A model generated the notes under the pieces. It was not told the origin of the DNA and searched no databases. It saw nothing but the letters and a program-made list of their open reading frames with translations. The position numbers were made by a program, and so were the translations under genes. DNA of 64,000 bases, taken from Lineus longissimus (Eukaryota; Nemertea; Pilidiophora; Heteronemertea; Lineidae). Location of the stretch: assembly GCF_910592395.1 (NCBI RefSeq), contig NC_088326.1, positions 2,299,001 to 2,363,000 of the forward strand. The letters run 5' to 3'. Numbering within the stretch: position 1 is the stretch's first letter; each line of letters opens with the position of its first letter. Shown here piece after piece: positions 25,641 through 50,531 of the stretch.

Positions 25641-25645
25641 GACAC
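25641..25645. repeat. Target-site duplication, left (GACAC)
   Basis: Identical to 26068-26072 on the far side of the retroelement. A 5-bp duplication fits integrases of Ty3/Gypsy or Ty1/Copia type. Confidence 0.85.
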
Positions 25646-25800
25646 TGTATAGTACCCCCAGGTATATGGCCCGGCTTAACCCGCCGGCCATGAGGGAATT
25701 CCTTTATGGCCCAGTGGTCGGCGCGTTGGCCCCAGAGTGGAAGTTAAGCAACGTTGAGCGCGGTCAACCTTTTGGATCGGTGACCGGCGCGTACAATGCA
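25646..25800 (+). repeat. Left LTR with 5S-like internal promoter
   Basis: 155 bp. The 5S-like part starts at about 25739 (GAAGTTAAGCAACGTTGAGC) and runs to about 25786 (GGTGACCG). Upstream of it, TGGCCCAGTGGTCGGC loosely resembles a tRNA A box. It has one extra T (CCTTTTGG against CCTTTGG in LTR2). Confidence 0.85.
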
Positions 25801-25913
25801 TCTGGCAGACCTTCCCACGCGATGCGAGCTCTGGATTTGTAGTTTGGTACTGAGACGCATGAAGCGTTAAGTAGGATCGAGGACGATCCATCTTTGTCCG
25901 AAGGGGGGAATGA
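25801..25913 (+). other. Non-coding interior: two stem-loops and polypurine tract
   Basis: Begins TCTGGCAGACC, where a primer-binding site would be expected. The TGG at the third base fits a tRNA 3' CCA end, but I could not match the following bases to a tRNA. An interrupted stem pairs ACGC/GCGT (25817-25820 with 25864-25867) and ATGCG/CGCAT (25822-25826 with 25856-25860). A second stem-loop is perfect: GGATCG, loop AGGA, CGATCC (25874-25889). The polypurine tract is 25900-25913. The stem-loops could serve RNA dimerisation or packaging; that is inference. Confidence 0.7.
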
Positions 25914-26067
25914 TGTATAGTACCCCCAGGTATATGGCCCGGCTTAACCCGCCGGCCATGAGGGAATTCCTTTATGGCCCAGTGGTTGGCGCGTTGGCCC
26001 CAGAGTGGAAGTTAAGCAACGTTGAGCGCGGTCAACCTTTGGATCGGTGACCGGCGCGTACAATACA
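25914..26067 (+). repeat. Right LTR with 5S-like internal promoter
   Basis: 154 bp and nearly identical to the left LTR. Its 5S-like part lies at about 26008-26053. It ends GTACAATACA against the GACAC duplication. Confidence 0.85.
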
Positions 26068-26072
26068 GACAC

Positions 26073-27328: not shown

Positions 27329-29704
27329 ATTGTGGGAAGCAAAGAAACCAGTAATATTATATTCAATGAGTTGTCTCCTCCTTGTTATGCAATGTAAATA
27401 AATCGTAGTCAAAATCATTTCAAACTAATGACACCTTTTTTCAACTAAAAACTTTCCCTCCATCCCCCAAAGGGGAATAGTTGACATTTGATATTCCACG
27501 CTGGTTCAAAAAAGAATTCTAATTTTGAAGTCACTCAAATGTTTAGTAAGTTTCGAATAACAACCTGAGGCTTCCGTTGAAGCAACAAAGACCTTCTTCG
27601 CGTGTGAAATCGAAAGCCTTTTGGTCTTTTGACGGTGTAAGCCGTGTGAAGGTTTGAAATGTCGTCGGATAGAATGCCCGGGAAATCCCAGGTGAGGCTA
27701 CGAAATGATACTCTTGCGTTTGCTTCCTAAAGTCAGAGTTTTTTAGGGGAATCTAAATAATGAGGGTTTTTTTGCACCAAATAATGAACAATTGGTATGT
27801 GTAACGTCGCTTTGCCTAAAAAACTCCACCCGTTGATCTTTTCCATATACCCGTGTGTATTCGAAGAAGGAAAAAGCTGTACACGAAAGAGTTAGTGCAC
27901 GCAGAGGATCTGAAATGTCAATGGGATATACATGTAGTAAAGGCCCCTACCATGGCGCCTAACTCGTAGCCTTAAAAACGGGTACACTTTGGAAGAGACG
28001 AGATAACAACTCGTCTTCAAACAAGAAAAAACTTGTTGACGTACACACAAGAAGTATCGAGGAACAGAGCATTCTATCCATTTATAAGAAATAAGTTCAT
28101 GGTGGTCTGAAATGCTATTCAAGAGGTTCGTGTTTGGTGAGCTACCCTTTTTATCTTGTGAATGGTAGAAATCTGAAACGATGGATTAGTCTTAGGTCGA
28201 TCCACTGGATCTATACTTTGAGTCTGATGGAAATTAGCTTTATCACACTAAACACTTCAGTTAAGATTGTACACGTTTTTAAGTCTGAATCAATACGCAT
28301 GTTGTCTGCATGTAACTCAGCATGCACATGTACAGTGACCCACATCGCGGCGCCCGTGCTTTTGCACTAGCTATACAGTTCACTATGCACAACGAACGCC
28401 TCACAGCGGCCGATTAAAGATTCCGCGCCTGTAAACCCTTTACAAATTGATTTAAGCAATATGCGTATTAGTTTTAAATGTTAACAGGAGCAATGCTCTG
28501 GCAACTACTCCCGAAAAAAATGCGGATTCGGAAGTACACTCGGGGTGCTCAGGCTATAAGCTATATGAAGTCGTGAACTGATAAAAACACACCACGATGA
28601 ATACAAAATAATAATCAACTTGCCTCCAAAGAATTCCCCAATGGCATATCAACATCTTTTATGCAAAAGGCAGATGTACCGAACACAAAGCTGCCTGGGG
28701 ACTTCATAAAATATATGCGTAATTTCCTGCGGAGTACCCACCAGGTTGAAACCGGAAATTAACAACATGACTGCCTTAAAAATTTTTGCGAAATCTCTTG
28801 ATCTTCAAACGAACACTCTGTCGCTTTTTTCAAAGTGCATGTGTATGTTCACCTGCATTCATGTTTTATTTGTTTCATTTGGGGGGGAGGGGGGGAGGTA
28901 CTGGTAGGGTAGACTTACCAATCCTTGGAATAGCTGAATAACTGGGGTAGGGGATGACGATAAATGAATTACGACTCAAAATTTTATTTAAATGAACCAT
29001 GAAAATTACAAATTTTTAAATGTTTATATGTAAGTTGGTAATTTCACCGAAGTTCATGAATTCAAAACACAAAAGTAGGTGAAAACGGAAGACAATGTCA
29101 CATCCTACTGTACAAACTGGTGGTGCAGTGGGACCATTTCCCGCATACATTGCCAAAAAGATGACCAGCTACGGTCCCCCGAAATCCCGTTACAGCATTA
29201 AATCAACCCGAGAAACATACCACCACGGCAGAAATGGACAATATTAACGAATGTTAAGTCGGATGAACCCTGCTCCTAAACACTCCCCAGAGGCCTCCCC
29301 TTGGCATCTTTTATTCAGAAGACATCGATGGATTTTTATAATTCATGGCAAATCGGATGAAAAGAGTCGGTGATTTCTTATTTTGGGTTCGCAATAGGAA
29401 ATTAAAAAGCGGTCATTCTCCCCAGGTTTTCTGCCGTTTTTCTTCGATTATCACAGCTTTCTACTTGTGTATAACCAAAGAATAAACAAACATTACTCTT
29501 GGTATCCATTTAAGTCTGTCTAAATTCCATCCTGTGATCGACTTATTTAATTTCCTTAATAATATCATCATGAGGAAATTGATAAAGCCCCTGTCAATTG
29601 TAATGCGAATATAATAAAATTTCAAAAATTGGGTTTTTGCACAAAAAAAGGTTTTAGTTTTTAGTTAGGCAATCAAGTTTAAAAAGAAAAGTTCGTTTCG
29701 TTAA
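27329..29704. other. Gene-free stretch
   Basis: No gene recognised. A G-rich run at about 28881-28908 (two blocks of six or more G) could form a G-quadruplex. Confidence 0.4.
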
Positions 29705-30139
29705 AGCCCGTGTAGCACACTCGCCGCCAACTTCGTCGTTCACAGGCGTTTTTTGCCGCAAGAGTCCTGAACGCCTGAAAAATCACTAGTCTGCTACGAA
29801 CGGCGTCGGCGAACGCGACTTGCCGCGACTTGCCGCAACTAAACGCCAAACATGTTTGATTTTGACGCGTGTCGCCGCGTTTGAACGCAACAAGAAACAG
29901 GGTGTGCTACGGATTGCCGCCTGAATTGGCGTCTGCGGCGAGGCTATGGCCAATCAGTATGCGTTTTGATGTCACATGATTTCAAAATGGCAGCCTAAAG
30001 TGGCGGAAAAGAGGCTACTGGACGCCGATTCTGGGCAGGTGTGCTCTGACCGGGATCCACTGGCCGCCAACTTCGGCGTCAAGAGGCGTCAGCTGAATGC
30101 TTCTTGTCGCCAAAGTTGGCGGCTAGTGTGCTGCGGGCT
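29705..30139 (-). mobile_element. PIF/Harbinger-type MITE, copy 1
   Basis: A 435-bp GC-rich element, the inverted counterpart of 31135-31558. It begins AGCCCGTGTAGCACAC and ends GTGTGCTGCGGGCT. The arms carry repeated CGCCAACTT / AAGTTGGCG blocks. Its flanks (TAA left, TAT right) do not form a clean duplication, unlike copy 2. The interior has no transposase. The open frame 29976-30242 is produced by the GC-rich end. Confidence 0.8.
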
Positions 30140-31131
30140 TATGCCTTGCTTATCATGTTGCCCTTATTGGAGTCCCCTTTTGGTCACTTGGTCCTTTGAT
30201 GCGTGCTGGAGCTGGGAGTTGAACCGAATTCCGAAGGTCTAGGATGCTAAGTTAGTGGCCTTATCTACATGTAGCCTATCGGAATTTCTTTTTCAAATTC
30301 TCAAGCCAGGAGTTCAAAACAAGTTAGCCCGAAGCTAGCGCACATCCGCGCTGTCATCAACAGAAGAAATGCACATTCTTATACCAGTCTTTTAGCTTGC
30401 TGTTTGAGAAATTATGCAGTTTCATGACCATTTCAAAACCATTGCTACACACACGCTAGTACCAGATGCAGAAAAATCTACATTTCATGAACTACGCGGT
30501 AGAAGATTCGCATAATACATCCTACATGTAACTGCCGGTAAATATTACCGGTCTCTCGAAAACAAGTTTCTAGAAGCGGCTTTTCCCAAACGGTCGCCGT
30601 TACATGGGATCAAATGATTGGTACACCCATCTAGCTGATTAAACCAGTGTTTGCCCCGCATACTAAGGACCTCGGGGGCGGGCCTAATGACGGCTGGGGA
30701 TCCAGGGGTTACCATTTGTCTTATGATTGTAATCAGGGATATAAATGAGCGGGTGATTCTTAAATGATGGATGCTGATATCCATATCAATATCGACGCAC
30801 GTTTGCCGTCCACTGCGAACAACCACGAAAATAGGCCTGCTCATTCTTTGAAGAGATATTTGAATTGGTTATTGATAAGTACCCTTTATTAGTCTCACTT
30901 GGTTCAGTTGTGTGTATGCGGCAAGCTGCGATATTGATCGTTAACCTAAGGCATGATCCGGGAAAACCTTGACTGTTTTATGCATCGATAAATCAGCAAA
31001 AACCAATATATACATTCCAAATTCATCAAAATGATAAGTTAAACTTAATTCTTTAAACTTCATTGATTAAAACTGAAACTAACACCCAATGTACCGATAC
31101 GTACATGTACATGTGCTATGTTTGAACACTT
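30140..31131. other. Spacer between two opposed MITEs
   Basis: About 990 bp. The minus-strand frame 30545-30844 (99 codons) has no recognisable domain. The two flanking MITEs are in opposite orientation, so this segment could be inverted by recombination between them. Confidence 0.4.
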
Positions 31132-31134
31132 TTA

Positions 31135-31558
31135 AGCCCGCAGCACACTAGCCGCCAACTTTGGCGACAAGAAGCATTCAGCTCTCGACGCCGAAGTTGG
31201 CGGCCAGTGGATCCCGGTCAGAGCACACCTGCCCAGAATTGGCGTCCAGTAGCGTCTTTTCCGCCACTTTAAGCTGCCATTTTGAAATCATGTGACATCA
31301 AGACGCTAGCTGATTGGCCATAGCCTCACCGCCGACGCCAAGTCAGGCGGCCATCCGTAGCACACCTGGCTTCTTCTTGCGTTCAAACGCGGCGACACGC
31401 GTCAAAAATCAAACATGTTAGATATTTGGCGTTTAGTTGCGGCAAGTCGCATTCGCCGACGCCGTTCGTAGCAGACTAGGGATTTTTCAGGCGTTCAGGA
31501 CTCTTGCGGCAAAAAACGCCTGTGAACGCCGAAGTTGGCGGCTAGTGTGCTGCGGGCT
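31135..31558 (+). mobile_element. PIF/Harbinger-type MITE, copy 2
   Basis: 424 bp, starting AGCCCGCAGCACACTAGCC and ending GGCTAGTGTGCTGCGGGCT, a terminal inverted repeat of about 20 bp that continues imperfectly. It is flanked by a TTA duplication (31132-31134 and 31559-31561), the target preference of PIF/Harbinger transposases. It aligns along its whole length with copy 1 in reverse orientation, with scattered differences and small indels. Confidence 0.85.
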
Positions 31559-31561
31559 TTA

Positions 31562-33721: not shown

Positions 33722-33887
33722 TACGTTGTACACGTGCAGTAAAACCCTGTCCCACAAGGAAGCGCGACCCTTCTTTACTGTGCTAATATTTAGAGTAAAT
33801 GTGTAAAAAGGTCAATCTTCACCGGTGAACTCGGCCGTTAAAGGTAATTTCAGACATTCCAGTACAAAATAAAAATGACAAATAGGT

Positions 33888-34041
33888 TGTATTGTACGCG
33901 CCGGTCACGGACCCAAACGTTGACCGCGCTCATCGTTGCTTAACTTCCACTCTGGGGCCAACGCGCCAACCACTGGGCAATAAAGGAATTCCCTCATGGC
34001 CGGCGGGTTAAGCCGTTCCATATACCTGGGGGTACTATACA
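33888..34041 (-). mobile_element. Solo LTR of the 5S-derived retroelement family
   Basis: A 154-bp minus-strand copy of the LTR seen at 25646-26067. On the minus strand it runs from TGTATAGTACCCCCAGG to GTACAATACA. It is flanked by its own perfect 5-bp duplication, TAGGT (33883-33887 and 34042-34046). A single LTR with a target duplication is what recombination between two LTRs of one insertion leaves behind. Differences from the complete element include AACGG for CCCGG after TATATGG, and GGGTCCGTGACCG in box C. Confidence 0.88.
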
Positions 34042-34046
34042 TAGGT

Positions 34047-36808
34047 CATCAATTTTGATATGATTGATAAACGAATTATTCATATTGAACAGGTGAAGGT
34101 GAAGTTTCTTATCTTCAGAATTATTATTGAGATCGTCAGCTGTAAGAGACATTTAGGGCCAAATTCATAAAGGGCGTTTAGCTTAAAACAGCGTTTAACC
34201 ACTGAGTAGACAGATTCATGCAAATCTTCACAGAATATGAATAGGCCCTGAAACTGATTGGAGAGAAGTTACACACGGGTAACCCTTAAATGATTTTAAG
34301 AATTTGGCCCTTAGAATTTAGGTGAGGGTTTATTGTGTTGATTCTTAAAGGGGCAACATATACACCAGTTATGTTGGTTTTTCGTACAAAAGGGCATCCA
34401 GCAGGACCGCGACATCTCGAAAGGGGCTATTCATTGAAAAACCGTACAACTGGGATAAGGTTGTCACAAGAAACTGTCGATTTATTCAGATTTGCTGATT
34501 GTTTTTCCTTTTTTTAATTCTTCCTAAGCACATTTGGTGCCTTTTGTCATTTTTCTTCCGCTCCCTAATTACCTAATGGTGAATATAAACCTCTTCCATC
34601 GACGATCTTTAGAACATAAATCAAGAATAAAAACATTGTATAGCGCGAATGGGCAAAAACCTCGATATCGCTAAGTGAATTATAGGGTATCGCATATCAG
34701 CTCAGAAATCAGGGGAAAAAGCGAAAAAATTCAAAAGCTCTCGGAAGAACGGCGTACGGTTATCTGATGGATAATGGCGGTTGAATAATAATGGTATTAA
34801 GTACGTCACATGATTGTCATGTGACTGCTAAATGCGCTAATACCCTTTTGTTCATTTGGAGGAAATGTGATCATTGGAAGAATGAAAAGATTAGGAGTTT
34901 GTTCTGTATGGTCGTGTGCTTACCATTCATATAAAGCTCAGTAAATTGTGAGCTTTTGTAATTGAAGACGACAATGATTTTGTAATAATAAGTCCATAAA
35001 AACGTGTCTGAGTAAATATGAAACACGCAGACGTGAGAACTTTCGGTAACCAACTTGCTGAGATTAGCAACATTTGCAACCCATATAACATGTCTAATGT
35101 CAAAGGTATCCGTGCATGTTATTGTACAAGTACATGACACCGACAAAAAAAATGCAAGTCGCCGCTAATCTCCAAAACCTTTGTCCAAAACAAAACATTG
35201 TCATTGTAATTGTTGTTGGCGATGCGACTGTTAGTAATGTAATTTTTCTCAGAACATCGTCATTGGCAACCCATCTTGTTAATTGGCATTATCCTATCGG
35301 TTTTCGTTTGGTGTTGGCTGGAACCTGACAACACGGACATCGTGCGATCCAAGCAAGCCTTCTTATATCTGAAATCGTTGTGCTCACTGTTCAAGCTAAA
35401 AAGATCTGACGATGAAGTGCACATGATTTAAGTAATGTGCAGGTATTTCGGTCATATTTGTTCCTTTCGTGTTTACGTGATAATGGCATTGTATTCTTGT
35501 GACATGACACCTTCAAAATAAGAGACAGAAGACAGAAGATGAGACATAATGCAAATATTTCTTCCACCATTTTCGTCTTTAGGTTTTCTGAGCCTTTGTT
35601 TTGCTTGCAAAGACATTTATAAAGATAGGCCCTACTCTATTTGCGAACTGAAAAGGTCAGTTTCGAGTTCATAGATTCCGGCCTTTTTCTACCCTGTAAG
35701 GCGTCATAATTTGCTTTCGAAATGGGATCCGAGGTTTATCATCCAGAGCTATTGAAAGATAGACAACTTTCTGATGAATACCTCGTTTGTGATTGTTCAA
35801 TAACGCTGTACTCTATGAAAGAGAAACTGACCCAGTACGTCAGCGGATTGAGTATACATGTTAGTCAAAAACACGAAATGTTCAAAACAAACATGAAGAT
35901 AAAACTGGTTGACTGAATTTAAAGTTCATTGGCTTCCTAAGGAGTTATCACCAAATGTAAATCCACTCCTACAGTTTCACAATTAATTGCGAAACTGTAG
36001 AAACTTTGAAATATTACCGCGCCAGATTAGACAGTGCTTCACAATAACATTATTGCGCGTGATCCCGATGTCGCACCAAAATTGTGACGGCCTCCCATTG
36101 GCTGAAAACGTTTAAAAACAAGAATAACAATACTGCCAATAGATCAAGAAGGCGAAAGTTAATTACAATACATCATTCTCATAAATGTCAACGCCTTTCC
36201 CAATTCTCGTGTGTGTCCATGTGGGTGTCAGGGTTCTTTCCTCCAATATTATCCTATATCTGCAACATATCTTCTACCAAATGCCATAATCCATAAATAA
36301 CTCCGAAATTCCAATACTCGGAATCAAAAAGTATTACCTGGTGTTTTTTCCGAAAGACCATCTGAACGAACTTCCATAAGCTTACGTATCTAGCATCTTA
36401 CTCTCAGGGAAGTGACCAGATACATATATGTTCTTAAATTGCAATTTAGTTGTGATGACTTATTCATTGTACATGTAGATGTAATCTGCAAGTATAGGTC
36501 AGTATACATGTAGGTCAGTGTTTAAGGTTGGCGTTATAGTTCATTACTTTTGGCGTTGGTAAAAAACAATGAGCCATACCGTATAGGACTAATAATAATT
36601 TATTGTAAAAAACCTCCAAATAAGGAGCAGACAACAGAAATATGCAATAAAAATCATACACAGAGAACGAATCAAAAAAAAAAAAAAAATCATTTCTAAG
36701 TTGGAAGGATTAACCCTGAGCTTCTTGGCAGAAAAATGACGACTCATTCTATTTTTTCAGACGAAATGGGCCCAGCATCGATAACGCCAGCGTTATAGCA
36801 CATCTACC
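34047..36808. other. Gene-free stretch upstream of the GPCR gene
   Basis: No gene recognised. There is a poly-A run at about 36676-36690. The region immediately before 36809 is presumably promoter and 5' UTR of the GPCR, but no clear TATA or initiator decides a start. Confidence 0.4.
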
Positions 36809-38059
36809 ATGGATTACGGATTATTCACCAACAGTTCCGAGGGCCAGAACTTCAGTGTTATGGTCTCCGAGACACCGCTACCGGACTACGAACTTTACTA
36901 CTTGAAAGATCAATTAACCATGGTGCGTTCCATAACATCACGGATAGTAGCCCCGACGATTGCATTCGTGGGAATAATGGGAAATATAATCAATATAGTC
37001 GTGCTTACTAGACGCTGGATGCGCTCGTCAACAAATTGTTACTTGACGGTTTTAGCGATTTACGATACGTTGTACCTACTGATTGCAACGTCTCTATTTT
37101 TCTTCCGAGTCTATCCCGATATTCGTTATACGATGGAGTACACGTATTACTTCTGGATAGCGCGCCCCCTTTCGAATGTGTGCAGTAATACGGGAACGTG
37201 GTTAACTGTGACGTTTACAGTGGAACGCTACATCGGCGTCTGTCATCCTATGAAGGGTCGCGTCTTATGTACTGTTGAACGCGCGCGTTATATAATCGCC
37301 GCAGTGTGTGCGTTAGCCTTTCTTAGTACTCTTCCTGATTTCTTCGATACGGACGTTGTGAGACCCGACGTTAATGCCACGAAATATGAAATGACGCGTA
37401 ACCACGGACACGAGATACTTACACAGATTGGGTACTACTGGATTAACCCTACCGTATTCACCTTCATTCCACTCATATTACTAGCCGTCTTCAACTCTCT
37501 GTTAATATATTCCGTTATGGAAGCGTCTAAATTACGGAAGTCAATGGCCAACATCGAAGTCACGGCGACGGACAACCGACGCGAACGCCAACAACGCGAA
37601 CAACAACGGATCACGATTATGCTAATCAGTGTAGTTGTCGTTTTCTTTTTATGTCAACTGCCCAGTGCTTGTTTACTAATTGTGCAAAAGGTCTACGATG
37701 ATGTGAGAAAAACAGAAAAATTGCGCCATACAATCGCGGGAAATGTCTTCAATGTCTTCGTCATGGTGAATTCTGCGATTAACTTTTTATTATATTCCTT
37801 GTTCAGTACGAAATTCAGGAATACTTTCAAACGAATTTTCTGCCGGTGTTGCCAAGATAGACAATCCCGGAACGATGGCCTTTTTTCAGAGATCGCCACA
37901 GCGCACCCAACGGCGATGCGTAGCAACCGTCCAAGCCTATGTGTACAGTTTAATAATGTGAATATAAGTCAAAGCCGTAGCCCCCTACCGGACAGAGCTG
38001 TAAACACGAGTAAAAATGGATATTTACAAATACAGAATAAACAAGAGGACTCTGTGTAG
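36809..38059 (+). CDS. Class A GPCR, FMRFamide-receptor-like, intronless
   Basis: 416 aa in one exon; start context ACCATGG is strong. It is predicted to be a plasma-membrane receptor for a neuropeptide, signalling through a G protein. Seven hydrophobic segments lie near residues 47-67, 77-98, 118-140, 161-178, 213-236, 268-293 and 308-332. Family signs: GNIINIVVLTRRWMRSSTN after TM1, ERY (139-141) for DRY, FLCQLP (280-285) in TM6, and NSAINFLLY (321-329) in TM7, giving NFxxY in place of NPxxY. The N-terminus has sequons at NSS (8) and NFS (14). CRCC (345-348) is a likely palmitoylation site at the end of helix 8. TM3 has C125, but extracellular loop 2 (about 180-212) contains no cysteine, so the usual loop disulfide cannot form. 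Ligand cannot be told from sequence. Confidence 0.88.
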   Translation: MDYGLFTNSSEGQNFSVMVSETPLPDYELYYLKDQLTMVRSITSRIVAPTIAFVGIMGNIINIVVLTRRWMRSSTNCYLTVLAIYDTLYLLIATSLFFFRVYPDIRYTMEYTYYFWIARPLSNVCSNTGTWLTVTFTVERYIGVCHPMKGRVLCTVERARYIIAAVCALAFLSTLPDFFDTDVVRPDVNATKYEMTRNHGHEILTQIGYYWINPTVFTFIPLILLAVFNSLLIYSVMEASKLRKSMANIEVTATDNRRERQQREQQRITIMLISVVVVFFLCQLPSACLLIVQKVYDDVRKTEKLRHTIAGNVFNVFVMVNSAINFLLYSLFSTKFRNTFKRIFCRCCQDRQSRNDGLFSEIATAHPTAMRSNRPSLCVQFNNVNISQSRSPLPDRAVNTSKNGYLQIQNKQEDSV

Positions 38060-41637: not shown

Positions 41638-43390
41638 GCAAAATTTAAAATGGTCCAGAGCTTCTGTAGTATCACGCGCAGAGTTTTCGTAATAGTTGTT
41701 ACGTCTCCTTCACCCTCACCGCACATTTCGCTCACATTGATGACGGGGTCGGTGATACGACAATGGACAAATAGTTCTTTGCTCGGAAAAGCTGAATATT
41801 ATTTTTTTCGTGATTCGCCAAAATGAAAATACATTTTCTAGACATGTTCACGAATTGCAGAAATATGAGGCGAAACAATTATTCAGAGTATTCAGTTGTG
41901 ATTCGTTCGAGTTAGATTTGTAGGGAATACGGATCTCTGAGAGATATGCCAGAAATGATTTTAATTGCAATGCATTTGTAGGGAGAAATGTACATGAACG
42001 CAACCAAGACTTCGTTTTGTACAAAATATGTCTGTATCATTGCAAAAAATAAGGTTTTATGTATAACTGTACATGTACTTGTTACACTGTGCTAACTCGT
42101 TTGGTAATAAACAATTGCTTGGTTAGTTTTGTGTTGTATTTATTCAAGAAACACGATTGCGTAATATTCCAGAAAGTAGATCTGCCTCCGCAGTAGCAAT
42201 GCGGTCATCGTATACATACATGTAGTAAAAAGCCCTCAAACACGTATGACATTGATCACGGTCCGATCTAAGACACAATTATTTTATTCGTAGACGATAT
42301 CGCTCATTCATAACGTATTGTGGTTGTCGTATTCGCTGCTAATCTGGCAAAAGGAAGGGGTGACGGGTGATTACATGATACGCTATTAATCCTGCTGCCT
42401 GAAAAACGGCAAATGTAACCACCACGATGGGTAATGCATGAGCGACATTGCGTTCGAATGAAATGGTGTTTATTTGCCTTGGGCTGAGGCCTAACCAGCG
42501 TTGAGCGTATAACCATCCTTCGTGAAATGTGTGGTTCTGGTCAACTCGTAGCTTGTGACACACTGTCTAAATATATATCTTCTATGGACGAATACCATAC
42601 TACTTGAGCCCAGGTCAATGCAAAGCCTATTACGCAATCACCGCGAGGTGTGCATATGATTACATACATATTATATCAGGTGAGTGTAGGATAATTGTTC
42701 ATTAACATGCATATGCTGGCACTGCCTGTCTAGTAGGCACAAGGTACTTCTTCACAGAGTGATATTAAATATTTGTCTATTTATAATCAGTTTATAATCG
42801 TGGACGTACCCTCCATTGCTAATTGGAAGACCCACATAAGGAACTTGGGAAACTCGGCATGAAATCACATCAAGAAACAAGAGGGAAGAATGTGTGATGA
42901 ACTTGGTGGAGTTTCGAATGTTCCCAACAACGATTCCAGTCTGAACTAAATGTTCATTAGTAAGTATAGTATACTCATTTGTATCGTGTCTTATAAATCA
43001 ACTGAACTCCTTTAGGTTTAGCCCTATTTTCATTCAAGCCAGCGAGTTTTATTAAACCCCCCTGTGGGTTGTTGTGATGTTAAACTCTTTCAATGAATGC
43101 GGCAGTCCTAATGTTCTCTCAAGGCCGTGTGGTATTGCAATGGCGCTGTTCACTGGAACCTTCGGAAACTAGGCAATCGTTCCAACCACGAACCTGGAGC
43201 CAGGAATTCATGAGAGAAAGGTAAAATCAGTCAGGAAATTTTGCCACTTTGGGAGGTAAACTTCCAAGGGGGTGTCTGTGGGAGATGACCTCCCAAACGG
43301 GTCGTCGCCGCTTTCCTTGGCTATGTTATTTTGAAACCTAGTGAACGCGTTTATATTCAAGATATCTAACAATAAACTATTCTCAATTTC
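41638..43390. other. Gene-free stretch upstream of the sulfotransferase cluster
   Basis: No gene recognised. It probably contains the promoter and untranslated first exon of the first sulfotransferase gene. Confidence 0.4.
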
Positions 43391-43478
43391 AGGGACGCCG
43401 AGCACAGTTTTCAAGTTCCCACTGCCACGAAGGTGGCTTTCGTTGTTTAACCAGTGGCGCCATCTATACAGGGTTCCG

Positions 43479-44537
43479 ATGGGAGACAAAAGGTGGAGGC
43501 ACGCGATCATCCTGGTGATTTTTTTGACAATTTTCACTTGGATATTCATCAACTTGACATGGACCGCAGATATTTCACGAAAACTACGACGAATGAGAAA
43601 TACGGGCGTCCTACAACCTCAGGTGCCTTTCAGAATTAGAGATTACGATAGAGGGCGCTTCGATGGTCGCCTAGGTGATCACCATGGCTACCGTGGTAGC
43701 TATGGAAACCCCACCGACGTTACCAAGGCAAATGTTAGAAACGAAACACGGAAACTTCCTCAGTGTATTATTATTGGGGTCCGCAAAGGGGGCACACGGG
43801 CACTCCTTGACTTTTTAGAGGTTCATCCGGGAATTAAATCGGCCGGAAGGGAGATCCATTTCTTTGACACAGATGAGAACTACAATCTTGGTTTAGACTG
43901 GTACCGCTCAATGATGCCCCCGAGTTCTCCTGGACAAATCACAATCGAAAAAACGCCGAAGTATTTCGTCTCCCCTCGTGTTCCTGAGCGGATTGCAAAA
44001 ATGAACGGGTCTATAAAGTTGATTCTGATCGTCAGAGATCCGCTTGAAAGGAGCATTTCCGATTTTGCGCAGTTGAAGAAAAGTGGAAAGGGTCCGCGTG
44101 AGTTTGAAGGTGCAGCAATAAACTATACTACTGGAAATGTAACTTCAAAGTTTCGACCAATATTGTATTCACTTTATTATGTGCACTTGCGGCACTGGTT
44201 GAAACATTTCAAACTGGAACAAATGTTGGTGTTAAATTCTGAGAATTTTGTAAAGAATCCAACGAATACACTGTCTCAAATTGAGACGTTTTTGAACTTA
44301 AAACACGTGCTAACTCGTGAGCAGTTTTACTTCAATGAAACAAAGGGGTTTTATTGCTTGAAGGAGCAGACGGGGCTTCGCGGAAAGAAGAGGAAACAAG
44401 CAGGTTGCATGGGGTCATTCAAGGGCATTGAGCACCCGAACATTAGCGCAGTAGTCTCGGAGAAAATACGAACGTTTTTTCGGCCATTTAATGAGGTATT
44501 CTTTAAAACAATCGGTGAGGATTTTCATTGGCACTGA
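43479..44537 (+). CDS. Heparan sulfate 3-O-sulfotransferase-like, paralogue A
   Basis: 352 aa from the first in-frame ATG. Predicted type II Golgi membrane enzyme that moves sulfate from PAPS to the 3-OH of glucosamine in heparan sulfate. Short basic tail, membrane helix at about 9-26, stem, then the sulfotransferase domain: KGGTRALL (103-110, PAPS 5'-phosphate loop), REIHFFD with the expected catalytic base E125, EKTPKYF, RDPLERSIS (187-195, 3'-phosphate site), FYC...C (C293, C310 disulfide). The loop between these cysteines is 16 residues and basic (RGKKRK), against 7 in paralogues B and C. The frame stays open upstream to a splice acceptor (CAATTTCAG, ending 43392), so an N-terminal extension from an upstream exon is possible. 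AATAAA at 44685-44690. Confidence 0.85.
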   Translation: MGDKRWRHAIILVIFLTIFTWIFINLTWTADISRKLRRMRNTGVLQPQVPFRIRDYDRGRFDGRLGDHHGYRGSYGNPTDVTKANVRNETRKLPQCIIIGVRKGGTRALLDFLEVHPGIKSAGREIHFFDTDENYNLGLDWYRSMMPPSSPGQITIEKTPKYFVSPRVPERIAKMNGSIKLILIVRDPLERSISDFAQLKKSGKGPREFEGAAINYTTGNVTSKFRPILYSLYYVHLRHWLKHFKLEQMLVLNSENFVKNPTNTLSQIETFLNLKHVLTREQFYFNETKGFYCLKEQTGLRGKKRKQAGCMGSFKGIEHPNISAVVSEKIRTFFRPFNEVFFKTIGEDFHWH

Positions 44538-47590: not shown

Positions 47591-47688
47591 AATGATTCTT
47601 TCCAGATTCAACAACTGCACGCCGGTCTACACGAAGAAAAGTTCGGAAGAGAGGAACTTCTGGACCCATGCGATGAATAGCACTGAGC

Positions 47689-48702
47689 ATGCACCTCTCA
47701 CGTGACGTCGGCAAGCTAATTTCTGTGGTAATTGTTGCCCTTGCGATCTTCCTGTTTCTCTTGTTTGTCTTTCCTCGGCAACACGCAAACAAGCTTCCTG
47801 CAACTTTTTTCAAGACCCTTTCGTCCCGAAAATTACAAAATGGCAGTGCTTCGCATCGCCAAAGTGACTTTCCCGTCCGCATTTTAGCACACACTTGGAC
47901 TAACGAAAATGTGACTCATCGGAACGAAACTCGTCGCCGTCTGCCGAAATGTATCGTCATTGGGGTCCGCAAAGGGGGTACTCGAGCACTGTTGGAGTAC
48001 ATAAACTTGCATCCCTCAGTTAAAATTGCACACAAGGAGCCGCATTTCTTCGACATGAACTACAGTATGGGATTAAAATGGTACAGATCATTGATGCCCT
48101 ATTCTGAGCCCAATCAAATCACAATAGAGAAGACGCCGAAATATTTCGTTTGGCCTGAGGCCCCCGAAAGGGTGCACCGGATGAACAGTTCAATCAGGTT
48201 GATTTTGATACTGCGGGACCCTGTAGAAAGGGCACTTTCGGACTACTTGCAACTAAACAGGAAAGAGTTATTAGCAACTGACCTCGGAAACGAGTTTGAA
48301 AAATTGGCCATCAACCAAGTCACAGGCAAAGTAAACTACGTATGGAACGCAATACAGACGTCACTTTATCACAAGCATCTTATCAACTGGCTGAAATATT
48401 TCCCGCGCAATCAAATCCTAATTCTGGACTCAAACGTATTGATAGAAAACCCGTTACCTGTTTTGCAAAAGGTTGAATCGTTCTTAGGCCTTGAACCGAG
48501 AATCACGGATGATATGTTTTACTTCAATGCCACAAAGGGGTTCTATTGTCGGACAGAGGCCCTCGGTGGCTGCCTGGGAAAGTTTAAAGGTTTCCCCCAC
48601 CCATCCTTAAATCCCGTGGTTATTGAAAAGTTAAGGGCGTTTTTTAGGCCCCACAACCAGGTCCTATATCAAATTGCCGGCCACGACTTCAAATGGGCCT
48701 GA
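47689..48702 (+). CDS. Heparan sulfate 3-O-sulfotransferase-like, paralogue B
   Basis: 337 aa in one exon; the start is fixed by an in-frame TGA at 47674-47676. Predicted type II Golgi enzyme of the HS3ST family, acting on glucosamine units of heparan sulfate. Membrane helix at about 9-28, then KGGTRALL (95-102), KEPHFFD with E117 as the expected base, EKTPKYF, RDPVERALSDY, FYC-7-C. A proline replaces the valine or isoleucine usual after the catalytic glutamate. It is closest to paralogue C: both share the NxTRRRLPxCI lead into the domain and similar nucleotides around the start (GCATGC..CTCACGT). The gene lies about 3.2 kb after A, same strand. No clear AATAAA close to the stop. Confidence 0.87.
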   Translation: MHLSRDVGKLISVVIVALAIFLFLLFVFPRQHANKLPATFFKTLSSRKLQNGSASHRQSDFPVRILAHTWTNENVTHRNETRRRLPKCIVIGVRKGGTRALLEYINLHPSVKIAHKEPHFFDMNYSMGLKWYRSLMPYSEPNQITIEKTPKYFVWPEAPERVHRMNSSIRLILILRDPVERALSDYLQLNRKELLATDLGNEFEKLAINQVTGKVNYVWNAIQTSLYHKHLINWLKYFPRNQILILDSNVLIENPLPVLQKVESFLGLEPRITDDMFYFNATKGFYCRTEALGGCLGKFKGFPHPSLNPVVIEKLRAFFRPHNQVLYQIAGHDFKWA

Positions 48703-49052: not shown

Positions 49053-49514
49053 CTGTACCTTTGGCCATGTTTACAATACAAGTACGTTCGGGTATCATGG
49101 AAGAACGACCCTAGAAAAGTTACCATCAAAAAGGGTTCTTCAAGGACTTTTGCAGTATATCATTATCTACCTCATCATTTTATTTATTTGATTTAAATCT
49201 TCAAAATTACAAGATGGTGCGGTCTCCTTTATTTGTCAAGAAGTTTCCTGTTGTGAAGTAATATTTCTAAGAATTCGATTGTTATCAATGATGTTTGTTA
49301 CTTCTATATGACTTCCATGAAGTTATCTCAGTCCCGTCATTGTAAAAACGGTTTAATAAATAAGTAACATCGATATAAAACTTATTTTCCTCTTTTCTAA
49401 TTTAGTGTGCAAGTCCTCAACGAACAAGCCAGGGAGCATTTTTCACCAAACTTTTCAAAATACATTGTATACAATTCGCTTTCAGATTCATCAGAAATAC
49501 ATCCGGATGCTGGC

Positions 49515-50531
49515 ATGCGTTGCTCACGTAACACAGCAAAACCGATCATCTTTGCTGCTTCCGTGGCGTCCATCTTGTTTCTCGTCATCATCGACAAGCG
49601 TCCGAAAACGATCACTGCATCACCTGTCAAGGACCTCTTGTTTGCAAGAAAATCGTATAGAATGGAAAATGGCAGATCTTCGTTTCGCCGAAATGACTCA
49701 TCAGTTTCTGTTTTAGCAAATTCCGGACGAAACGAAAATGTGCCTCGGCGAAACAACACCCGGCGTCGTCTGCCGCAATGTATCATCATTGGGGTCCGCA
49801 AAGGGGGTACTCGTGCACTTTTGGAGTTCTTGAAATTGCATCCCTCTGTTAAAACTGTTCAAAAAGAAGTGCATTTCTTTGACAAAAACTATAGTTTAGG
49901 TTTGGATTGGTACAGATCACATATGCCCCTTTCTAACCCTCATGAAATCACCATTGAGAAAACCCCGAGGTATTTCGTTACGCCAGAGGCCCCTGAAAGG
50001 GTGCATCGCATGAACAGTTCTATCAAATTAATTTTGATTGTACGCGACCCAACAGAAAGATCTATTTCCGATTTTTCGCATTCTCACAGACGAGAAATTC
50101 GAGCTGGGCCATTAAACGAAACATTTGAAGAACATGCTATCAATGCAGACACGGGAAGATTGAATCTGGATTGGTCCAGCATTGGGATTTCCTTGTATCA
50201 CAAACACATCGAAAGATGGCTAAACTATTTCCCGCGAAAACAAATCCTCATCCTGGACTCGGAAGCTTTCATCAAAAACCCCGTCCCTGTGCTCCGAAGA
50301 ATTGAATCATTTCTAAACCTCGCACCCAAGTTTGGCCCCAATATGTTCTACTTCAACAAAACCAAGGGTTTTTATTGTCGAAATACGCCCCCTGGCGGGT
50401 GCCTTGGGTGGACGAAAGGTTTGCCTCACCCTGAGGTTCGCCCAGAGGTGATTGCGAGGTTGCGGGGTTTCTTTCGGCCACACAACACGGTATTTTATAA
50501 GATGGTTGGACATGACTTCAAATGGCCATAA
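49515..50531 (+). CDS. Heparan sulfate 3-O-sulfotransferase-like, paralogue C
   Basis: 338 aa from the ATG at 49515. The frame is open further up to a splice acceptor (TTTTCTAATTTAG, ending 49405) but without an ATG, and the chosen start matches paralogue B in position and surroundings. Predicted type II Golgi enzyme of the HS3ST family. Membrane helix at about 9-26, then KGGTRALL (96-103), KEVHFFD with E118, EKTPRYF, RDPTERSISDF, FYC-7-C near the end, and the usual terminal DFKWP. All key residues are intact. It lies about 0.8 kb after B, same strand. AATAAATAAAT at about 50690 can serve polyadenylation. Confidence 0.87.
   Translation: MRCSRNTAKPIIFAASVASILFLVIIDKRPKTITASPVKDLLFARKSYRMENGRSSFRRNDSSVSVLANSGRNENVPRRNNTRRRLPQCIIIGVRKGGTRALLEFLKLHPSVKTVQKEVHFFDKNYSLGLDWYRSHMPLSNPHEITIEKTPRYFVTPEAPERVHRMNSSIKLILIVRDPTERSISDFSHSHRREIRAGPLNETFEEHAINADTGRLNLDWSSIGISLYHKHIERWLNYFPRKQILILDSEAFIKNPVPVLRRIESFLNLAPKFGPNMFYFNKTKGFYCRNTPPGGCLGWTKGLPHPEVRPEVIARLRGFFRPHNTVFYKMVGHDFKWP

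Follow-up and report, generated by a model that had tools for sequence, protein, structure and literature searches.

A copy of the TRIM Ajax, with a 5S-derived segment in its LTRs, in the nemertean Lineus longissimus and a candidate Gypsy partner for the family

Introduction

What is a short, non-coding LTR element with part of a 5S rRNA gene in each of its repeats doing in an animal genome, and whose enzymes could have moved it? The element in question lies on chromosome 19 of the lineid nemertean Lineus longissimus, within a stretch of 64,000 nucleotides that we analysed as a whole and call the window. An earlier reading of the window, which used the sequence alone (the sequence-only reading), described the element as a Cassandra-like TRIM and considered a 5S-promoter LTR element to be unusual in an animal. 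This was a fair belief, but it is outdated: in 2024, Kojima described such elements from two nemerteans, Notospermus geniculatus and L. longissimus, under the name of Ajax (PMC10886601, cited here and below from excerpts of its text, as are PMC7215508 and PMC1950507). Ajax elements are TRIMs of 421 or 434 bp with 5-bp target site duplications, and their LTRs contain a partial 5S sequence (box A, the intermediate element or IE, and box C only); 1,114 LTRs and 151 interiors were reported from L. longissimus (PMC10886601). In a literature search, we found no further paper on Ajax among the matches listed, and the word Ajax does not occur in PMC10853983.

Structure and identity of the element

Comparing the window with itself, we found an LTR element of 422 bp with LTRs of 155 and 154 bp (Table 1). 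The coordinates given earlier are exact to the base, and so are the LTR lengths, the TG...CA ends, the 113-bp interior, the polypurine tract, and the GACAC duplication that had been read from the sequence. The element is short and non-coding and has two LTRs, a primer-binding site (PBS), and a polypurine tract (PPT), as a TRIM does. Its two LTRs differ by two substitutions and one indel. The window also contains a second copy of the family, a solo LTR 8 kb from the first, which the sequence-only reading had missed.

Table 1. Features of the two Ajax copies in the window (positions are those of the window)
Feature	Position	Strand	Remarks
Left target site duplication	25641..25645	+	GACAC
5' LTR (LTR5)	25646..25800	+	155 bp, TGTAT...ATGCA
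tRNA-like box A segment, 5' LTR	25703..25729	+	81.5% over 27 nt to tRNA-like locus L120
5S-derived segment, 5' LTR	25740..25786	+	box A, IE, box C; extra T gives TTTT at 25770-25773
Interior	25801..25913	+	113 bp, without a long open frame
Primer-binding site	25803..25819	+	TGGCAGACCTTCCCACG, behind a 2-nt TC spacer; over 16 nt, departs from the 3' end of tRNA-Arg(ACG) by an inserted A and a mismatch
Polypurine tract	25900..25913	+	GAAGGGGGGAATGA, directly abutting LTR3
3' LTR (LTR3)	25914..26067	+	154 bp, TGTAT...ATACA
tRNA-like box A segment, 3' LTR	25971..25997	+	23/27 to L120
5S-derived segment, 3' LTR	26008..26053	+	37/46 to native 5S positions 48-93
Right target site duplication	26068..26072	+	GACAC
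Solo LTR target site duplication	33883..33887	-	ACCTA on the minus strand
Solo LTR, Ajax family	33888..34041	-	95.5% identical to LTR3; 5S-like part at 33902-33947
Solo LTR target site duplication	34042..34046	-	ACCTA on the minus strand

The element shares with Ajax-1_LiLo its species, its TRIM anatomy, its 5S part (box A, IE, and box C), its 5-bp duplications, and a large excess of LTRs over interiors. The length of the unit also agrees, as 154 + 113 + 154 gives 421 bp here and 421 bp was published. Given the species, the anatomy, and the length, the window element is almost certainly a copy of Ajax-1_LiLo, the TRIM whose LTRs hold a 5S promoter. What was read from the sequence is thus correct in itself, and both the family (described in 2024) and its host were already known.

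Ajax copies across the genome

We searched the genome (391,118,348 bases in 30 contigs) for a 29-nt core of the LTR and found 381 places with three or fewer mismatches, versus none for a reversed control. Ajax copies number in the hundreds and are dispersed. In a search for full-length copies, the best 40 of 410 candidates gave 46 matches, and we fetched 39 loci, excluding the window's own. All 39 have an interior between LTR copies (one LTR was only partly matched in three single copies and in one array). The target site duplications are perfect at 31 of these loci, have one mismatch at five, and lack a match at three; by chance, 5-mers at that distance agreed in 9 of 11,800 cases. Among 32 copies, the median divergence between paired LTRs is 1.95% (range 0.65–5.8%).

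Five of the 39 loci are arrays of the form LTR-interior-LTR-interior-LTR, and their outer duplications are perfect in three, have one mismatch in one, and are degraded in one. A three-LTR array within one duplication can arise by template switching before insertion (PMC1950507) or by unequal exchange after insertion. A second sample, taken from exact matches to the core (100 were listed), comprised 20 loci that looked isolated. Seven of these are lone complete LTRs, six of them with perfect duplications; the other 13 are full-length, truncated, or cut by the end of the fetched stretch. The sequence-only reading had staked its case on the form of copies elsewhere, and the sampled copies do have LTR structure and duplications.

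At one locus (L100, C11:9712700-9722500), two pieces of Ajax face opposite ways with about 1.1 kb between them, and a 3' LTR of the Gypsy family described below lies roughly 4 kb away.

The 5S-derived segment

As a reference we used the native 5S rRNA gene: 47 of 11,363 candidates were scored, all 47 at 110.4 bits, and the eight genes that we fetched are identical. LTR3 aligns without gaps to positions 48-93 of this gene, with 37 of 46 nucleotides identical and a score of 47. The maximum among 10,000 dinucleotide shuffles was 28, and when both strands of the window were cut into 154-nt tiles, none of the other 1,636 reached 47. The 5' LTR of the window element (score 45) and the solo LTR (37) each exceed all 10,000 shuffles as well. 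Thus the alignment to the native gene, which had been proposed as a check, bears out the claim of a 5S stretch in both LTRs of the element. Neither the interior nor the antisense strand of LTR3 matches native 5S beyond shuffles.

The remainder of the 5S gene is absent from the LTR. A search of the LTR with the Rfam 5S model gave no match up to an E-value of 10, which is to be expected when 46 of 119 nt are present and the 5S fold is missing. The match to human 5S was weaker, with a score of 24 for LTR3 that was equalled by 5 of 2,000 shuffles. A search of viral and genome contig collections for the LTR core pattern and for a 5S pattern gave no matches.

Within the aligned segment of LTR3, box A is identical to the native gene at 14 of 15 positions and box C at 15 of 18. 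The cores of the two boxes are 32 nt apart, as in the native gene, in all 71 LTRs that have both exact cores (among 98). In the 5' LTR of the window element, one extra T between the boxes makes a TTTT, which is found in 2 of the 98 other LTRs. The absence of TTTT elsewhere is uninformative as a signature of RNA polymerase III, because 1,150 of 2,000 shuffled units likewise lack it. Folded as RNA, the LTR is somewhat more stable than shuffled sequences (z = -2.29; 3 of 200 were equally good). Among 106 LTRs, the 5S part is as variable as the rest of the LTR (0.0207 versus 0.0204), and a comparison of copies thus gives no sign that the promoter is constrained.

The origin of this segment, and what it does, can be read in several ways. 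SINE3 elements have a 5S-derived promoter segment too, and Kojima proposed SINE3 as the source of the insert in the Ajax LTR (PMC10886601). If the segment is just a relic of such an insertion, with the element transcribed by RNA polymerase II, then its ordinary variability among the 106 LTRs and the extra T between the boxes of the window 5' LTR would be easily understood. But LTR3 keeps both boxes nearly intact at the native spacing, and when Ajax, SINE3, and 5S were compared, the promoter regions were more conserved (PMC10886601). We consider the relic reading unlikely and judge from these sequence comparisons that the Ajax LTR probably uses RNA polymerase III. That the element might instead be a SINE3 or an array of 5S pseudogenes would fit the genuine 5S part, but SINE3 elements have no LTRs or primer site and are moved by non-LTR elements, whereas here we find TG...CA repeats, 5-bp duplications, a primer site, a polypurine tract, and solo LTRs; the probability of this is negligible, and a 5S pseudogene is excluded by the LTR anatomy. 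An animal Cassandra, whether by common descent or by transfer from plants, would have the same architecture, since Cassandra too is a TRIM whose LTRs contain a 5S promoter and forms short tandem arrays (PMC7215508), which here have three LTRs. However, Cassandra belongs to plants and is 565–860 bp long (PMC10886601), versus 422 bp here; the primer site in the search pattern for Cassandra is TGGTATCAGAGC (PMC7215508), and that of the window element differs; and Kojima regards independent origins of Ajax and Cassandra as almost certain (PMC10886601). Kinship with Cassandra is therefore very improbable, and from length, primer site, and the excerpted text of Kojima, we found no support for transfer from plants. 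The label "Cassandra-like" holds as an analogy of architecture but not as a statement of descent.

A tRNA-like segment in the LTR

Upstream of the 5S part, LTR positions 58-84 resemble a tRNA-like locus found elsewhere in this genome (L120): over its D-arm and box A, 23 of 27 positions agree. ARAGORN calls this locus a tRNA-Leu, and its Rfam match is weak (42.5 bits). In a comparison with 24 fetched tRNA loci, the score of the match was equalled by none of 1,000 shuffles and by 1 of 1,342 tiles of the window. If L120 is left out, the best score is 24, which 7 of 1,000 shuffles reach under a null that still includes L120. From these matches, the head of the LTR would seem to be a composite of tRNA and 5S sequence. 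Kojima reported a longer stretch that is common to Ajax and some SINE3 families (PMC10886601).

The primer tRNA

A tail in a locus with Gypsy-type LTRs (L090) led us to the tRNA-Arg(ACG) genes of the host, whose 3' end predicts the primer site TGGCGACCTTCCCAGG. Three Gypsy copies match this site at 14–15 of 16 positions. Among 53 Ajax interiors, the primer site comes in three forms: 43 have TGGCAGACC, with an extra A; nine have TGGCGAC; and one has TGGCTGACC. One of the nine TGGCGAC interiors is a perfect match to the predicted site (16 of 16). If this primer is used, reverse transcription would be expected to leave a mixture of sites, some genomic and some copied from the tRNA. By sequence, the Ajax primer site fits the host's tRNA-Arg(ACG), which is at odds with the published primer, tRNA-Leu (PMC10886601); our comparison covered 24 tRNA loci, of which one (L120) is of the Leu type.

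The locus with the tail (C19:15167800-15169900) has its own peculiarities. Its copies of the Gypsy-type LTR stand in inverted order, and a stretch of about 50 nt that follows one LTR end reads as the complement of the 3' half of tRNA-Arg, extending into the anticodon arm, which exceeds a normal primer site.

A fused copy and a candidate Gypsy partner

In the excerpts of PMC10886601, Kojima does not name an autonomous element that would serve Ajax, and states that there is no indication of one for Cassandra. We searched for a helper in two ways. With the Ajax interior as the query there were 134 candidates; we scored the best 40, and all had 96–100% identity (flanks were checked for part of them). 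We also searched for the exact Ajax primer site behind a non-Ajax LTR end, that is, with a base other than T at position -4. This pattern found six places. Three of these were fetched: one has no Ajax match (L076), one is an Ajax copy (L077), and one is a fusion (L078). The remaining three coincide by coordinate with Ajax matches. The exact primer-site pattern, which is blind to fusions with T at position -4 of the LTR or with a changed primer site, therefore found one fused copy.

In L078 (on C13), a foreign LTR of 224 bp is joined to the first base of an otherwise ordinary Ajax interior, and a complete 3' LTR of Ajax ends the element. On either side stand CAGGA and CAGCA, identical but for one base, as expected of an aged duplication.

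The 224-bp LTR occurs at 13 places in the genome, including the one in L078, and one of them is partial. Pairs of it bound two large elements; we describe the Gypsy copies as they stand, unmended. The element on C1 (C1:15437244-15450209) measures 12,966 bp between the outer LTR ends and has the duplication CCTAC. The one on C10 (C10:8607387-8615510) is 8.1 kb long, with a pair of 224-bp LTRs and the duplication AGGAT. Open stretches in the C1 element encode protease, reverse transcriptase, RNase H, and integrase, and this order identifies it as Ty3/Gypsy. The two best relatives of its reverse transcriptase among solved structures are 4ol8 (reverse transcriptase/RNase H; 6.2e-45) and 7q5b (Ty3-G Gag-Pol; 1.5e-43).

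The Gypsy family and Ajax have in common a TC spacer, a primer site of the TGGCGACCT type, 5-bp duplications, a G-rich tract ending in TGA, and, in most of the LTRs printed, an ACA end. Of seven Gypsy LTRs, one starts exactly as Ajax does (TGTATAGTA), five are one base off, and one is two bases off. Beyond the ends, we found no similarity between Ajax and the Gypsy family: the LTRs align with a score of 15, and the interiors score 21–24 as compared to a shuffled maximum of 26–27. The sequence-only reading had suggested looking for a coding LTR element with the same primer site and polypurine tract. Such an element does exist as far as the type of primer site and a G-rich tract are concerned, but no longer sequence is shared.

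We regard the Gypsy family as a candidate partner because a fusion of this kind is what plus-strand transfer would produce if Gypsy and Ajax cDNAs were packaged together. On this single case, the low-copy family with the 224-bp LTR, or a close relative of it, is rather likely to be the autonomous partner of Ajax; other LTR families may share the same ends as Ajax. As for how L078 itself arose, we give about even chances to its being a fossil of trans-mobilisation, in which plus-strand strong-stop DNA of the Gypsy element, consisting of the 224-bp LTR and the primer site, moved onto the minus strand of Ajax and the hybrid was integrated. It is less probable that L078 formed after integration, when a Gypsy copy and an Ajax copy recombined or underwent gene conversion at their shared primer site, and it would then be silent on co-packaging. 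At the junction the two families do share a short stretch (ACATCTGGC together with GACCT), and just a single case was found, both of which suit such an exchange. However, the junction falls exactly between the LTR end and the start of the interior, and L078 has complete LTRs at both its ends, one from Gypsy and the other, at 3', from Ajax. Furthermore, flanks that are one base apart are as expected from a single insertion of a joined molecule: a random pair of 5-mers would agree as well as CAGGA and CAGCA in about 1.6% of cases (by arithmetic, with equal base frequencies). So little homology would also be unfavourable for ectopic exchange. L078 may also be an assembly error.

Our best overall explanation, in which we have high confidence, is that the window element is a copy of Ajax-1_LiLo with the following proposed life cycle. 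RNA polymerase III would start near position 48 of the 5' LTR (about 25693), and the short Ajax RNA would be packaged in trans by a Ty3/Gypsy particle. There, tRNA-Arg(ACG) would prime the packaged RNA and reverse transcription would follow. The Ajax cDNA would then integrate with a 5-bp duplication, and recombination between the LTRs would later leave solo LTRs, of which that at 33888-34041 would be an example. For L078, the plus-strand transfer would run from Gypsy to Ajax cDNA within the same particle, by way of the tRNA-Arg primer site that both have, and would therefore yield a Gypsy 5' LTR, an Ajax interior, and an Ajax 3' LTR, which is exactly the structure of L078.

If L078 is a true fossil, then it is a physical link between a TRIM with a Pol III-type promoter and its autonomous partner, and it would imply that shared ends and a shared primer suffice for parasitism, without homology in the LTR or the interior. 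The idea that a Pol III-type LTR element borrows the machinery of another becomes testable now that there are a specific Gypsy family, a primer tRNA common to both, and a fusion. The window element itself confirms the description of 2024 (PMC10886601), and the candidate partner is what we add to it.

Relation to known systems

The candidate Gypsy partner, the fusion, the three-LTR arrays, and the tRNA-like box A are absent from the excerpted text of Kojima's paper (PMC10886601); as noted above, the primer tRNA is also read differently. Helenus TRIMs resemble Ajax in having a Pol III-type segment in the LTR, and the Ajax LTR likewise has a tRNA-like box A, but animal Helenus elements have 4-bp rather than 5-bp duplications and contain tRNA sequence without 5S. 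The three-LTR arrays have a parallel in complex insertions in Triticeae, in which three LTRs and two interiors lie within one 5-bp duplication (Sabot and Schulman 2007, PMC1950507). In those cases the elements are of full size, come from plants, and are joined to relatives of their own, whereas here the element is a TRIM and, in L078, the fusion is with a foreign LTR.

Other features of the window

Besides the two Ajax copies, we observed several other features in the window. Self-comparison shows an array of tandem repeats, each about 59 bp long, at 619-2072. At 15-71 on the minus strand there is a tRNA-like Rfam match (34.6 bits) with no ARAGORN call, which is perhaps a tRNA-derived repeat. 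Two stretches of about 440 bp, at 29702-30141 and 31133-31561, are inverted copies of each other with 90% identity. Three consecutive open frames (43335-44537, 47677-48702, and 49401-50531) have mutually similar DNA and are probably local duplicates; by their motifs, they look like sulfotransferases. Finally, a single open frame at 36785-38059 encodes a GPCR that resembles FMRFamide receptors, with matches at 84% identity and, in the nemertean Tubulanus, at 50%.
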